Source of the DNA: Pseudophaeomoniella oleicola
Taxonomy: Eukaryota; Ascomycota; Eurotiomycetes; Phaeomoniellales; Phaeomoniellaceae
Assembly: GCA_003868215.1 (NCBI GenBank)
Contig: QWDQ01000055.1
Location: forward strand, 121,341 to 185,340
Reading direction: 5' to 3'
DNA length: 64,000 nt
The notes below the pieces were generated by a model. That model was given only the letters and a program-made list of their open reading frames with translations. It did no database searches and had not been told where the DNA came from. A program made the translations under genes and the position numbers. Every line of letters begins with the position of its first letter. Position 1 is the first letter of the stretch. Positions 56,174 to 64,000 of this stretch are shown here, in pieces.

Positions 56174-58462
56174 ATGAACGGAAAAAGGGCTGAACAACGA
56201 AGGAAGGTACGTATTGAGCCTCAGTTGTAACCTTCATAATTGTCTTTCCGTGACTGAAACGTAATGACAGGCTTGCGACACTTGCAGGAGGAAGAAAACT
56301 CGGTGTGATGGGGAAAGGCCTGTCTGCGCATCATGTAGAGCTTTCCACCTACCCTGCAATTTTCAGGATCATACCAATAGCCGACGCTCAAATAAGTATG
56401 CCTTAACCTTCCCCCTCCCAAGTGCGGCCTTTGACAGGTCCGATATAGGGAGTATGTCCGGGAGTTAGAAGATAAAGTCCGGTCAATGGAGGCTATACTA
56501 CAGTCCCGAACGCCGTCTGTAGATGAATTAACGGTATCCGAAGGAAATCGGGTCAATGCAGATGCACCCAACGTCGACCTCGAGCAAATCACTATCGGGG
56601 AGGTCGGACAATCAACAAGAGATCACTATCAGCCAATCGATCAAACGAGCGCAATTGACGAAGGTCAAGTTCCCTATGTTATGAATGCTCCCAACGGGTC
56701 AATGCGATTCTTTGGTTGGTCTCACCAGCTTTCCGTCCATGACAGCTTCAAAAGCTGACCATCATATCAATAGGACCTTCTTCTGGGTTTTCTGCCATCT
56801 CTTCTCGAGGTGATTCATATTCAGGATACCCAATGGAGTCGAAAAAACGTCTTGAATTTGACAACAGTGCTAGTCGATGGCAAATCACTCCTTGGATACC
56901 CCAGATTCTCCAAGATGAGCCAGCACATCGAGTGTTCCAATCCCTACCGAATAAACAAACGACAACGAATTTGGTCAGGCAACTTCTCACAGGCTTCAAC
57001 ATGGCTCTCCCACTATTTGAAGAACAATCCCTCATGAAGCTGGTCGAAAACCATTTTTCATGGAATCCTGACGAGAGACCTTCTTGGTGGGCAGCTTTGA
57101 ACGTTGCATTGGCTATCGCTTATCGAGATCAAGCACAGCAGCTGCCAGATGGGAGCGAATACTGGAAGTTGTCTTTCGGGCATATCAAGAATGCTTTGAA
57201 CGTCGTGATCCAACTTTTCATGCGAGCCGCAGACTTACTTGCTGTGCAAGGAATGCTGGGTTTAGCTCTTTATTTCCAAGATACTCCGAATCCCCAACCC
57301 CTTTTCATGTTTGCAGCGGCAGCAATACGCTTAGCTCAGTCAATTGGGTTGCATAGATCAAATGTATCTGGATGTTCCCCATCTCAAATCGAAGAACGAA
57401 AGAGAACTTACTGGTTAGCCTTCATCCTTGATGCAGATATTTCTCTCAGAACCGGACGCCCTCCAGCACAGGACGCCAATGACTACGACACCCCAGCCTC
57501 ATTCGGAGATGATGTAGGTATCATCATATTGAATGGGATCAAGATGAATTATTTCAGAACCTTGGCACAATTTGCCGTGATCCAGCGCCAGCTCTATCAT
57601 CAGCTCTACAGCGCGGCTGCGACCAAGACTTCCGGCATGAGTAAGATCACGAAAGTATTGGATTGCGAGAAGTCCTTACTTGAGTGGCGACGCTCAATAC
57701 CGGACAAATTTTGGTCAGAGCCTGATGTTTTCACTCAGAATCATCCTCTAATGTCCCACGTCTTGAGGTTACACTTTGCATATCACAGCTGTTATGCCAA
57801 CTTGCATCGTATTTTCTTGGCTTCTAAGCAGCATATTCAATCTCTCGAACAGAGCGTAGACGCCCTCACGACGGCGAAGAATCTTGAAATATCGACTGCT
57901 AGATCTCTTAATTCAGCGCGTTCTGCGATAGACCTGACAGAATACGTTGAGCTTTTCAGCCCATCTTTCGCATGGTATGTTTCTCAGATATCCTATGCCG
58001 TCCAAACTAAACATTTCTAGGGGTGTCCTCTACTTTCCCGCTGTATCAACGGTGACGTTGTTCGCAAATATATTAGTGAATCCGTTTCACGTAGAAGCCA
58101 GATCCGATCTTTCGAGGATTCGTCGAGTCGTCAAATTCTTGACAAAACTATCCTCACAGGACCAGGGAACGTATGTGGATTACATTCTCAAACATTGCTC
58201 CAATTTCGAGGCCGAAGCGAAGCGAATTCTAGACAACGCTGAGCGAGACGCTGCACAGGCCTCCGTAATCCCAGAAGTATCTGGCCTACAAGATCATCCC
58301 ATGGCTCATATCCAAGGTCCAGCTCAGCCAAATATCCTCGAGACCTCATTGAATATGTCCGATCCATATGATCTATCTGCGTTTGACTTGCCAGATGCTT
58401 CTTATCAGTTTTCCACTTGGAGCTGGCAAGACATGGCTTCCGGGATGCCACCATCTTTTTGA
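56174..58462 (+). CDS. Zn2Cys6 transcription factor with Fungal_trans domain
   Basis: Likely pathway regulator of the neighbouring CoA-transferase and AtuA-like genes. Five exons (56174-56206, 56271-56395, 56449-56714, 56774-57974, 58021-58462) keep phase and give 688 residues. The zinc cluster ACDTCRRKKTRCDGERP then CASCRAFHLPC is complete and is broken only by the first intron, which sits just before it. A coiled-coil linker follows (EYVRELEDKVRSMEAIL). The middle-homology domain shows LGLALYFQDTPNPQPLFMFAAAAIRLAQSIGLHR and RKRTYWLAFILDADISLRTGRPPAQ. The C-terminus (about 660-688) is Asp/Trp-rich and may activate transcription. The third exon's acceptor (GATATAG) was chosen because the nearer GACAG breaks the frame. 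Stop is 76 bases from the convergent CoA-transferase. Confidence 0.9.
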
Positions 58463-58538
58463 ACACTAGCAAAGATTTATTCCGATACATTTAGTAAGGT
58501 ACTTAGGCTTGTTCATCTTTTGTGTTATAGTGTCGACA

Positions 58539-60310
58539 CTACAGCCAAGCGATATCACTGTCGTGATAGCAGTTCGGCACGGACGGGGTGACCCATCTAG
58601 GAGTTGCTTCCCCGTCATCCAGCTTAGCAACAGGCTTGAGTATAGTTTGGCGCCCCCATACACCAGATTCATACGTCGTCATGAGAGGCGAGCTTTCTTT
58701 GAGAAGATCAGGGAGACCCCGCTTCCAACCATCAACAACTTGCACCAGAATCTCTGAAACAAATTGGTCTGGGGTTGAAGGGACAAAGCCAAATTTCTCG
58801 ACAATTCTTCGAACGACCTCGGGCGGGTACAACCCAACTTCCTTCTCGAGTGAAATTGCGTCTGATGCAACAAGGGAAGTGACAACATGGTATGAGCCAC
58901 CTTTCACGGCTCGGTCACGAATAGCCATCATAATTGCAAGTGCACCAACCAAGCCACAAATCATATCAGAGACTGGTAAAGGGGGAAGAATACTCTTGCC
59001 TCCTTCATGACCCCACGATTTTCCCATGATATAGGAAGAGCCCGAAGCTGCGTCACCAATCTGCTGCCATCCCGGTCGTTGGGCAAATGGTCCATCTGGA
59101 CCATAACAGTTCTCATCAGCATAGATAATGCCCTTATTTCTCTTTCCTGCCAATTTCAACAGGTCACGAAGCCCAAGGCCCTTCCGTTCCAAAGAACCAT
59201 AACGGAAGCCTTGAACAAAGACATCGACGTCTTCAAGAAGCTTTTGAAGTCGAGCAAGATCCTGGGGGTTTCCAATATCAAGGTCTATCGTGCGTTTTCC
59301 AGCGTTGAGGGTCAATTGCAAAACCTGTGAGAGTCAGCAGAAGTGGTACAAAGGGTGTGGGGTCCTACGTTAAGATCTGCAAGCTTGCTACAATTGACTC
59401 TTATAACGTCTGCTCCGTATGAAGCGAGCGTGACGCCGACAGTTGGACCTGCGATGATTCGTACCAACTCTAGTACCTTTACACCCGCAAGTGGTCTTCT
59501 ATCCGACATCTTCGGGAGAGGGACTCTCGGTGTGGGAATAGCGTAATCCTCGTGAGTATAATTGACAAGTGGATGTTTGGCTAATCGCATGCCCATCTCA
59601 GTCTTCCTCCAGCCTTCAGGCGTATAACAGATGCTACCACAGAGTCCGTTGCGGACGTTGTGCATCTCTAGCTCATCAGGATTCCACTCAAGAACATGTT
59701 TTTGGATATAGTCATAAGTTTCCTTTGGTGTCTTGGGGGTGAACGTGGTGTCGATCCCCATGGATTCAAGTGTCAGCTTTGCATCGAGTGATCCATGAAG
59801 TTGGTACCAGACATTGGGCTGCTTTGTTTGATAGATCGCTGTTGTCCTACCGGCGAAGCCCTTCCCAAATCCTTTCTCAAAGTCGTAGTCAAACAGCCCA
59901 GTCAGTTTGCCCGCTCGAGCAAGAGTCGAAACATCAGAGCCGTCGACATAATTGGTGAATGTTGAGCCAAGCCAGATACCAGCATGGTCGGTATTAACCA
60001 CGACGCTACTCTCACTCAGTGGCTTTCCATCGCGAAGTTCAAGAAGTTCATTTGCCACAAAGCCACACATTGCATGAAGGGCGGCAGCGACGACGGGTGA
60101 TTTGATGGGGCCTGGTATCATAGGCTCTGCACCGCCTTCCATTTTGACCGTACTCCATGCCTTTTTGTCTTGGCTAAAGCCTGGTGTCTTTGAGGCAAGG
60201 TATTCGAAAACTCGACGAGCATCTTCTGGGACTGGAAGAACGGTTTGATCGATAAAGGTTCCCGGGCCATAGACATCAGTCCCTGTAATACTGTTGTATG
60301 AGGCAGTCAT
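58539..60310 (-). CDS. Class III CoA-transferase (CaiB/BaiF family), two-domain
   Basis: Family members move CoA between carboxylic acids (formyl-CoA transferase, carnitine CoA-transferase) or racemise acyl-CoA. Two exons (60310-59369, 59324-58539; 45-bp intron, phase 0) give 575 residues. The N-terminal half (1-300) looks like a degenerate CaiB domain (SPVVAAALHAMCGFVANELLELRDG), and the second half begins RPLAGVKVLELVRIIAGPTVGVTLASYGADVIRV, the classic start of a CaiB domain. Then DLDIGNPQDLARLQKLLEDVDVFVQGFR and GIIYADENCYGPDGPFAQRPGWQQIGDAASG. The usual catalytic Asp position (RPGYD in many members) holds Gln401. The substrate is unknown. It is divergent from the AtuA-like gene. Confidence 0.88.
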
Positions 60311-61000
60311 CTTGTGAAATTTGCTACAGATGTTATTGTTTACTACTTTACAGCAAGGAAGAGAAATCAGAATCCCTCTTTATGTTTTGCAGATCAAGGC
60401 CGAGCTCCTGGAAGTGCCGCGATAGACGTTTCATGACCCACATCAATTCGGACATCAGAACGAATACTACGTATTACACAGGATGAGCATGTGCACTAGG
60501 TATCACCAGAGAGGACTTATGACCACGCCGAGGTCAAGGAGCAATGTCAACCCTTGCTCATTGGAGGCTTTCGATCGCCGCGGAACTTAAATGCCTCGGA
60601 GACAAAACTCCCACGGAGTAAAACTTGCCGTGGTCAACCCAAAGCCCGTGGGATCGGATGTACATGGTAATTGCATGGTAAGTCGTTCCAATGAATGTAC
60701 TGTGTTCAGAGTCCAATCTTTCTCTCCATTGGTATCCGACAGGTCACGAGGTGGATGCATGTCTTATAGCGGACAATTCATTCTTACGCAGTGGAGCGCT
60801 TCTCACGTATACCTTTTGTGTATACTTCCCTCTTTATAAATTGACATTACGCATTTTAGAAACACGTTTTCGCAAGTCTATTTCATCTATCCGAATCTGC
60901 TACTCCGACTATTTGTCTCGTAGTTGGCTGGTTGAGCCCTTCCGCCACAACTCTTCAGGCATATACTATTCTCTCGGAAGAAATACACGGAATTCCTAAT
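60311..61000. promoter_or_regulatory. Shared divergent promoter of CoA-transferase and AtuA-like genes
   Basis: 690 bp between two divergent ATG codons. A cluster of CGG half-sites lies at 60598-60619, where CGGAG occurs twice and a CTCC lies between in inverted orientation, as expected for a Zn2Cys6 dimer site. A TATAAA-like TTTATAAAT is at about 60833-60841. A leader ORF of moderate length at 60591 has an ATG (MPRRQNS) but no family. Confidence 0.5.
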
Positions 61001-63032
61001 ATGGCGCGTCCTATCGAACATCGCCCCGTGCGCGTGGCCAACTGTTCTGGTTATCATGGAGATCCAGCGATTGAGATGTATCGACAGGCAACTCTGGGAG
61101 ATGTTGATTTTATTACTGGAGATTATCTCGCAGAAGTCAATCTAGCACAGAACGCGCAAGCCTACCGCGAAGGGAAACATCCAGGCTATGAAGAAACTGC
61201 ATGGGAAGGAATCGAGCAAACAATCGATGTTATTGCTCAAAAAGGTATTCGAGTTGTCATCAATGGAGGAGCCTTGAACCCAAAAGGTCTTGCTGAGAAG
61301 GTTGCTTCTCTTGTAAGTATTTGGAATTTCCTGTTGGTTGTCTGTTATTGACTAGTTTGATTCAAGGTCTCAGAGAAGCAACTGAATCTACAGGTTGCTT
61401 ACTTGTCCGGGGATGACTTATTCGACAAAGTTGGTCCATGTATGCCCACCTCGAAGACCGGGTTGCTACATTTGGATTCAACGAATCATTCTGTCAAGCC
61501 TTCGGACCTGACCTACTCTTTTCTTCGTGGGCCTGCTGTACCAATGGTTTCAGCTCATGCGTATCTCGGCGCTCGAGGGATTGTAGATGGTCTCAGGCGT
61601 GGCGCAGATATCGTCATTTGCGGTCGTGTTGCTGATGCAAGCCCTGTGATTGCCGCAGCTTGGTTCTGGTATGACTGGTCAGAAACAGACTATGACCTTC
61701 TTGCTGGCAGTCTCATTGCGGGGCATCTCATTGAATGCTCGGCGTATGTCACCGGGGCAAACTTCGCAGGATTCCATAACTATAATCTTAATGACTTGGT
61801 TGCTCCTGGGTTTCCAATTGCCGAAATATCCAAAGACGGGAGCTGTGTCATAACCAAACATACCAACACCCAAGGAATGGTCAACGTTGACACTGTTCGC
61901 TGTCAATTCCTTTACGAATTACAAGGTAATGTTTATCTTAACAGTGATGTCAGTGCTCACATTGGAGATGTTGTGGTGGAAGATGCAGGCAAGGATCGGT
62001 GAGTAGAAATGGGATCATTGAGTTTCAACTCTGACGCTGCAATAGAGTTCGCGTTTCCGGAATCAAAGGCTCCCCTCCACCACCGACCACAAAACTCGCG
62101 GTTTTCTATCAAGGAGGTTACGAAGCCGAAATACTTGTCAATGCCACTGGCTATGCAACTTCACAGAAATGGGATTTGCTGGAGAAGCAGATTCGTCATT
62201 TCATCCCAGAAGATGTCCACGGTAGCCTGGAAACCCTTGAGTTCCAAAGGTAAGTTCCTTGCCCTACCCAGGGAGGGATACTAATTTGTAAGAATCGGTG
62301 TCCCGGCTTCGAATCCGACTTGTCAACTTGAAAGTACCACATACCTTCGAATCTTCGCCGCATCTATTTCGCAGGACTCTGTGGCAGCGGTTGCCAAGTC
62401 CCTAAAGAACATCTCGCTGAAACACTTTTCTGGTATTCATCTCTCTATATATGAAGGGAGTGTATACTAACATCAGAACAGGCTTCCATGCGTCCCTTGA
62501 TACAAGGACTGCCGTGCCGCGCCCATTCTTAGCTTATTACCCGGCTATCATTTCCCAGTCTGATATTGACGAAAAGATCAACTTTATAGAAGAGTCGTCG
62601 ATCAGGTCATTTGATACCGGTCACCCATCAGCATATGAAAGTCTTCAACCTCGTGACAATTATGATGCTCCGACTATACAATCTTTCAATACCCCTCATA
62701 AGGACATTTGCCTTGGTGATGTTGCATTTGCCAGATCAGGCGACAAGGGTGGAAACTTGAATTTCGGAGTATTCGTTCCTAACCCTCAACATTGGGCATG
62801 GCTACAGTCGTACATGTCCCGGGAGCGTATGCAGATCCTGCTTGGTAAAGACTGGGATGACTCCTTCCTCATCGAAAGGGTGGAGTTCCCCCATATCTTT
62901 GCTGTACACTTTGTCATCTATGGCATCCTGGGACGTGGCGTAAGCAGCTCAAGCCGGCTGGATGGATTTGGTAAGGGATTTGCAGATTATGTTCGTGATA
63001 AGATAGTGTCTTTCCCAGAAGAGCTTCTGTAA
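61001..63032 (+). CDS. AtuA-like (DUF1446) acyclic terpene utilisation family protein
   Basis: In Pseudomonas AtuA belongs to the citronellol/geraniol degradation cluster; its reaction is not established. Five exons (61001-61312, 61367-61998, 62046-62249, 62293-62432, 62482-63032) keep phase and give 612 residues. The N-terminal domain has ANCSGYHGD, DFITGDYLAEVNLA, VVINGGALNPKGLAEKVASLVSEKQLNLQVAYLSGDDL, and GADIVICGRVADASPVIAAA. Later come the GLHASLD-like GFHASLDTRTAVPRPFLAYYP and a C-terminal ferredoxin-fold-like domain from about 510 with DICLGDVAFARSGDKGGNLN. The acceptor of exon 2 at 61366 was chosen over a later one because it restores SEKQLNLQ, which matches the family. Upstream neighbour is the divergent CoA-transferase. 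Confidence 0.9.
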
Positions 63033-63785
63033 CTTAAGGATCAGGACATAATATTGCTGCTGAGTATTCTAGTACCAGCGTACGGCTTAAGGTCAGGATT
63101 TCCCCGATCATCTTTAATACTATTTATCGTGAAATCCGATATAAAATTTATATTAATAAAATACGTTATATTCTATAATTTAAAAAATATTATTATTATT
63201 TAATTATTTTTATTATATTATATTAATTATATTTATATTCGATATAATTTATATTAATAAAAATATTATATTATTTTAATTTGTTCGTTTTCTTTTTCTA
63301 GTTCGTTTTATATTATATAAAATAAAAGAATTATTAATAACTCTATTTTATAAACTTATTTCATTAATTATAAATTATATTTTAATTTTAATTTTTTATT
63401 ATTTTTTCTACTTTATATCTTTTTATTATGATTTTCTTCCTTCCTTCGGGCAGCGGTGTATGAGATTAATCATATTAATATATTAAATCCTGCATTCTCA
63501 TCATCCTCCGCTGCATCCGCTTTTACCTTCTTCCTACTTAATCCTATACTTGATGGTATTCTATTCAGAATATTGTTTAAATAGGTTTAAATTAGGATCT
63601 AAAATTAAATCTTAAAAGAATAAAATATTTTTATTAATATTCTACCTACCTATATGCACCAAGCAGTTTACTATGGCATTAGCATACTGATGGGAATTTT
63701 GGGTAATCTAATGTTAGAAGGTTAATAAGAAAATTATTAAAGTTTAGAGTCTAATACAGAGTCTATTAATTCCGTTAAAACTAAA
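63033..63785. other. AT-rich subtelomeric DNA
   Basis: From about 63110 to 63640 the sequence is almost only A and T, with many TATTAAT/ATTATA words, apart from short GC-bearing islands near 63440-63540. This fits repeat-induced point mutation of an old repeat, or simple subtelomeric sequence. No coding signal. Confidence 0.6.
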
Positions 63786-63880
63786 AGATTAATAATCCCA
63801 CAGAAGGTTAATAATCCCGTAGAAAATTAATAATTCCGTAAAAGATTAATAATCCCGCAGAAAATTAATAATCTCGTATA
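63786..63880. repeat. Five tandem 19-bp subtelomeric repeats
   Basis: Consecutive units of 19 bp starting at 63786, 63805, 63824, 63843 and 63862 follow the pattern aRRttaataatcccgYaga, with up to five changes per unit. A weaker related unit may precede (about 63767). The block lies 43 bp from the telomere tract. Confidence 0.85.
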
Positions 63881-63923
63881 GAAAATAAATAAGGAATATT
63901 AAGATCTTAACGAAACCGAATAA

Positions 63924-64000
63924 TTAGGGTTAGGGTTAGGGTTAGGGTTAGGGTTAGGGTTAGGGTTAGGGTTAGGGTTAGGGTTAGGGTTAGGGTTAGG
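63924..64000 (+). repeat. Telomere (TTAGGG)n
   Basis: Twelve complete TTAGGG units plus TTAGG reach the window edge without a mismatch. The G-rich strand reads toward the 3' end, so this is a right-hand chromosome end. The length is probably cut short by the assembly. Confidence 0.98.

Follow-up and report, generated by a model that had tools for sequence, protein, structure and literature searches.

Three adjoining genes at a chromosome end of the ascomycete Pseudophaeomoniella oleicola encode a Zn2Cys6 regulator, a class III coenzyme A (CoA) transferase and an AtuA-family protein. They are interpreted here, with a probability of about one half, as a single small catabolic module in which CoA would be loaded onto a branched hydroxy di-acid that is then split without the help of a carboxylase. 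The genes lie in a stretch of 64,000 nucleotides (contig QWDQ01000055.1, positions 121,341 to 185,340), referred to below as the window. They are intact, their neighbourhood is conserved in several fungal genera and the catalytic aspartate of the CoA-transferase is in place, whilst the fold of the AtuA protein comes from structure prediction.

In the proposed scheme, the regulator would sense the acid and turn on the divergent CoA-transferase and AtuA pair. The CoA-transferase would move CoA, probably from succinyl-CoA, to a free branched di-acid that carries a tertiary hydroxyl group, the 3-hydroxy-3-methyl/alkylglutarate type being the most likely. The AtuA protein would then cleave the C-C bond next to this tertiary alcohol in a retro-aldol reaction, with a 3-oxoacyl-CoA and acetate as products. 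As the fungal module contains a CoA-transferase but no carboxylase, we infer that the substrate enters as a ready-made di-acid; hence no carboxylase would be needed, in contrast to the majority of bacterial AtuA operons examined here. More tentatively, the genes may represent a mobile fungal pathway that splits 3-hydroxy-3-alkylglutarate-type acids in this carboxylase-free manner by means of a fused AtuA lyase and a class III CoA-transferase with an unusual architecture.

The locus and its neighbourhood in other fungi

The three genes fill positions 56174 to 63032 (Table 1) and have open frames and GT..AG introns. The splice sites are predicted, having been chosen manually by reading frame and comparison with relatives, and the start of the second AtuA exon at 61367 was set by such comparison. 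The locus forms the right end of a 185,340-bp contig (C64) in a genome of 26.1 Mb and 112 contigs, within the last 8 kb before the telomere, the repeats of which reach the last base of the contig and are separated from the AtuA stop codon by 891 bp. The first-pass annotation had described three adjoining genes with these domains in a subtelomeric position, and the sizes of the convergent gap and divergent spacer that it gave hold on the spliced models, each of which is backed by Pfam. The stretch from the end of the AtuA gene to the telomere is AT-rich, with a GC content of 0.36 in the last 2 kb (62001 to 64000) compared with 0.47–0.52 elsewhere in the window.

Table 1. Features at the right end of the window (positions count from the first letter of the window)
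Feature	Position	Strand	Details
Zn2Cys6 regulator gene	56174-58462	+	5 exons, 688 amino acids; spliced model, Pfam
Regulator exons	56174-56206, 56271-56395, 56449-56714, 56774-57974, 58021-58462	+	spliced model
Gap between convergent stop codons, regulator/CoA-transferase	58463-58538	.	76 bp, from sequence
Class III (CaiB/Frc-type) CoA-transferase gene	58539-60310	-	2 exons, 575 amino acids; spliced model, Pfam
CoA-transferase exons	60310-59369, 59324-58539	-	single 44-bp intron
Spacer between divergent CoA-transferase and AtuA genes	60311-61000	.	690 bp, presumed shared promoter
AtuA-family gene	61001-63032	+	5 exons, 612 amino acids; AtuA domain fused to ferredoxin-like domain; probable C-C lyase
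AtuA exons	61001-61312, 61367-61998, 62046-62249, 62293-62432, 62482-63032	+	spliced model
Telomere (TTAGGG)n	63924-64000	+	repeats reach last base of contig

Homologue searches were made with each of the three proteins, the best 120 matches being listed per query, and all statements below on relatives and linkage refer to the matches listed. The linkage tally used the named rows with a contig (119 for AtuA, 110 for the CoA-transferase and 96 for the regulator), the rest being unnamed or without a contig. Each row shows one representative contig, and two rows were taken as one contig if species and length were identical. The relatives come from Aspergillus, Penicillium, a few Fusarium, Pseudogymnoascus and Sarea. 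All three genes share a contig in 13 assemblies. For species found in both lists of a pair, AtuA and the regulator lie on a common contig in 30 of 38 (8 misses), the CoA-transferase and the regulator in 17 of 30 (13 misses) and AtuA and the CoA-transferase in 21 of 42.

Locus tags gave the gene order in other fungi, without strand. AtuA and the regulator are exactly two tags apart in 11 of 12 readable pairs, the twelfth being P. antarcticum, where tags are not serial, and the CoA-transferase and regulator are consecutive in all three readable pairs. Of five readable pairs of AtuA and CoA-transferase, three are consecutive (F. torreyae, S. resinae and P. malachiteum), whilst the tags in Fusarium VM40 differ by one step of ten and those in P. 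brevicompactum by two. The P. malachiteum genes N7488_004357, 004358 and 004359 encode AtuA, CoA-transferase and regulator, the same order as in the window.

Because the same genes adjoin in other fungi, the linkage of the three is largely more than chance, and the neighbourhood is conserved in the manner of a fungal catabolic gene cluster, with exceptions, in Aspergillus, Penicillium, some Fusarium, Pseudogymnoascus and Sarea. The earlier suggestion that the pair could form a joint acid-CoA unit, to be checked by a search for linked CaiB and AtuA homologues in fungi, is thus borne out in part: the genes adjoin in part of the fungi, and three gene trees place Fusarium among the same Eurotiales, but the linkage is not universal, as A. 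nanangensis illustrates. It is improbable that the two enzymes belong to different pathways and are adjacent by chance or through a shared promoter, given that the gene order recurs in these five genera, that the three genes look jointly transferred and that a class III CoA-transferase beside AtuA also arose in two bacterial operons (L047 and L048). What speaks for such independence is that the biochemical link between the two is an inferred one, that some species, such as A. nanangensis, have both genes but in unlinked positions, and that contig C38, which carries a second AtuA gene of the genome, lacks a class III CoA-transferase.

The trees also bear on mobility. With FastTree, the AtuA of Fusarium groups with Penicillium and Aspergillus in a clade of 14 rows (support 1.0). 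The Fusarium CoA-transferase belongs to a clade of 12 rows that also holds P. malachiteum, P. angulare, P. brasilianum, three Aspergillus species and others (0.997), and the regulator of F. sarcochroum to one of 6 rows, together with A. aculeatus, A. uvarum, A. karnatakaensis and A. venezuelensis (0.996). A CoA-transferase tree made with greater care from 32 rows gives the matching clade a support of 100/100, and a tree holding the 21 Eurotiales rows together was rejected (p-AU 4.6e-6). This suggests that the module moved into Fusarium from the Eurotiales, a transfer that is supported rather than proven since the tested group was named after the first tree had been seen, the chosen outgroup does not form one side of a branch and further rows fall inside as well. 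The AtuA protein of the window is sister to that of Sarea resinae (FastTree support 0.97). The three-gene module is real, often conserved and probably mobile.

The regulator itself has Zn_clus (E 1.9e-9) and Fungal_trans (E 5.5e-14) domains in Pfam, which identify it as a Zn2Cys6 regulator, and its best relative is 47% identical over most of the length. The motif CTCC-N3-GGAG was rejected as its binding site: one copy lies in the spacer, but the window holds 2 against 1.21 expected, a number reached by 39 of 100 shuffles.

The CoA-transferase and the AtuA-family protein

The CoA-transferase belongs to class III by its match to CoA_transf_3 (PF02515), which covers half of the Pfam model only, and its best relative is 73% identical. 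Catalytic Asp434 aligns with Asp175 of Rv3272 (position counted by hand on the alignment), the mutant of which is named in the title of PDB entry 5yiy, and is invariant in all 29 aligned sequences. An alpha-methylacyl-CoA racemase was considered and rejected, as the catalytic His before the Asp (GHD) is replaced by Trp400 (RPGWQQ), a position where a relative encoded on contig C47 of the same genome reads RAGHD. The mutants H126A and D156A are named for the Mycobacterium tuberculosis racemase, and the Trp400 position presumably corresponds to its H126.

The N-terminal half (residues 1–268) is kept in fungal relatives. No relative of this region was found by Pfam or hhalign and it was also unmatched in a fold search, which is not proof of a new fold. 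By eye it resembles a worn CaiB half, in which case the enzyme would be a double in rearranged form; a second CaiB half was rejected at an hhalign probability below 1%, the likeness being by eye only. A 998-residue Fusarium graminearum protein (P0232) combines a relative of the CoA-transferase with cupin and NAD-binding dehydrogenase domains, and represents a fusion or else the merging of gene models.

The AtuA-family protein matches PF07287 with an E-value of 4.9e-156 over profile positions 1–436 of 437, and its AtuA domain is fused to an AtuA_ferredoxin domain (PF23544, E 2.8e-17). The best relative is 75% identical. The sole strong structural relative of its predicted structure is a citramalate lyase subunit with pyruvate bound. 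This subunit, CmlA (PDB 9erq and 9evf), is an AtuA-family protein, known here by PDB entry title and molecule name; the predicted fold is shared over 407 residues, and GRxxD, EC and LYE stretches, starting at residues 190, 226 and 286 of the window protein, align and are motifs common to the solved member and the fungal protein. Unlike the fused fungal protein, CmlA is a separate subunit. A C-C lyase-type role is therefore well supported by the predicted fold and is probable, and the papers PMC12016498 and PMC4682846, taken up below, agree with it. The only other AtuA gene of the genome, on C38 (about 17.4–19.5 kb; L005 3917-5987), also has a fused ferredoxin-like domain and is accompanied by FAD monooxygenase, FAD-linked oxidase, epimerase-like and aldo-keto reductase genes.

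The same fold would also suit a citramalate utilisation unit, in which either citramalyl-CoA is formed by the CoA-transferase or AtuA acts on citramalate directly, the products being pyruvate and an acetyl unit. Such a unit would be an outlet for citramalate made by fungi from itaconate or by citramalate synthase. Besides the pyruvate-bound structural relative, there is a DUF1446 gene in an enterobacterial glutamate-to-citramalate cluster, the citramalate-cleaving enzyme being described as unidentified at that time (excerpts of PMC4682846); the protein may be CmlA. In A. niger, moreover, itaconate breakdown ends in citramalate, the role of which is called unclear in the excerpts of PMC6862759. 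This reading is rather unlikely, as the fungal AtuA is far closer to fused AtuA proteins of actinobacteria (31–39% identity) than to CmlA (16%), most of the examined loci of these actinobacterial proteins hold acyl-CoA carboxylase genes, and HpcH_HpaI-family loci elsewhere in the genome could supply a citramalyl-CoA lyase.

Bacterial AtuA loci and the terpene pathway

Among 119 sampled genomes of the Gordonia sihwensis phylum, 26 contain PF07287. Acyl-CoA carboxylase genes are present in 21 of 37 distinct bacterial AtuA loci of 4.9 to 21.8 kb (38 scanned, one twice). With bacterial queries over the 37 loci, a class III CoA-transferase was found directly beside AtuA on the same strand in L047 and L048, and a third about 4.3 kb away on the other strand; the fungal CoA-transferase profile gave no match over the first 8 loci and two over 36. 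The order in L047 is carboxyltransferase, biotin carboxylase, AtuA, class III CoA-transferase and aminotransferase. L048 (330-9880) encodes a TetR regulator, MaoC, AtuA large, enoyl-CoA hydratase, AtuA small, class III CoA-transferase, thiolase, methylmalonyl-CoA mutase(-like) protein and carboxyltransferase, and looks like a complete branched-acid pathway. Carboxylase, hydratase and thiolase genes around bacterial AtuA fit a lyase that yields a 3-oxoacyl-CoA.

Family membership, and the carboxylase genes beside many bacterial AtuA genes, also invite the view that the module contributes to an acyclic terpene (citronellate/geranate) pathway like that of Pseudomonas, the remaining steps being encoded elsewhere in the genome. 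The atu pathway shares the AtuA family and a chemistry involving 3-hydroxy-3-alkylglutaryl-CoA intermediates with the proposed module, but its lyase step is assigned to LiuE rather than AtuA (excerpts of PMC4097962), and the fungal AtuA, unlike that of the atu pathway, pairs with a class III CoA-transferase. The first-pass annotation had noted that geranyl-CoA carboxylase and acyl-CoA dehydrogenase are not in the window, and this doubt can be carried further. None of the three module genes encodes a carboxylase, dehydrogenase or hydratase (no dehydrogenase search was made elsewhere in the genome), and the genome has only two Carboxyl_trans loci, C49 (a 1924-residue frame) and C37, which are taken to be acetyl-CoA and methylcrotonyl-CoA carboxylase, leaving no candidate geranyl-CoA carboxylase. 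The terpene pathway was therefore rejected as highly improbable.

Comparison with known systems

A functional parallel to the proposed module is ThnP-ThnQ-ThnS of anaerobic naphthalene degradation, where a CoA-transferase gene directly precedes AtuA-like lyase genes (excerpts of PMC12016498 and PMC11659651) and the ThnQ-ThnS lyase works at a tertiary hydroxylated carbon, as proposed for the fungal AtuA (PMC12016498, same excerpts). In contrast to the fungal system, the Thn lyase consists of two proteins rather than one fused protein, ThnP is a family I intramolecular CoA-transferase, and the genes sit in a large operon with dehydrogenases, hydratases and a thiolase.

Several points weigh against the proposed module. 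AtuA and the CoA-transferase have no common contig in 21 of the 42 species with both. Twelve of these hold distant CoA-transferase paralogues only (51–60% identical), but nine hold module-like ones that are at least 65% identical (identities by eye): A. californicus, A. flavus, A. lucknowensis, A. nanangensis, A. niger, F. lateritium, P. atrosanguineum, P. herquei and P. salamii. Because each row shows one representative contig, some of the nine probably come from separate assemblies of the same species; the locus tags show A. nanangensis to be a true exception, with AtuA (FE257_000228) and CoA-transferase (FE257_001324) on separate contigs. The identity between the fungal AtuA and 9evf is low, as given above, and a fungal-only AtuA profile searched against the PDB does not recover CmlA/9evf. 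The CoA-transferase scores far under every NCBIfam equivalog cut-off, so the sequence does not tell its acid. In bacteria the direct pairing is confined to 2 of 37 loci. The ThnQS result is cited as unpublished in the review PMC12016498 (excerpts), and as ThnP is of family I, not III (excerpts of PMC11659651), that parallel is one of function only. The functions given to the fungal CoA-transferase and AtuA are putative.

No description of a fungal CoA-transferase/AtuA pair or lyase was found in the open-licence PubMed Central literature searched; in the excerpts of PMC5371717, A. nidulans AN10086, a DUF1446 gene, stands in an expression table, and neither this paper nor PMC9367143 adds more on the matter. 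Fungal AtuA/DUF1446 proteins are numerous and mostly unnamed, and the tie to a conserved regulator, a CoA-transferase and a C-C lyase fold makes the family testable. If the proposed module is real, many of these proteins would gain a first function, AtuA would become a general retro-aldol lyase family, bacterial AtuA function would also be explained, and an acid-utilisation route would be added to moulds used for organic-acid production.

CclA, of the fungal IctA-IchA-CclA pathway, is presumably not an AtuA protein. Like the module, this pathway applies a CoA-transferase and then a C-C lyase to a branched di-acid, here of C5, but its genes are unclustered in A. niger (excerpts of PMC6320622). 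The itaconyl-CoA transferase IctA of A. niger is An07g00760 in the same excerpts, and in this species the relatives of the module have An02 names; by gene names alone, orthology with IctA and an itaconate pathway were rejected. Finally, human SUGCT (succinyl-CoA:glutarate CoA-transferase, PDB 9br6) covers fungal residues 261–574 only, the fungal CoA-transferase having 268 extra N-terminal residues and scoring 76.8 bits against a cut-off of 750 with the NCBIfam succinate-glutarate model.

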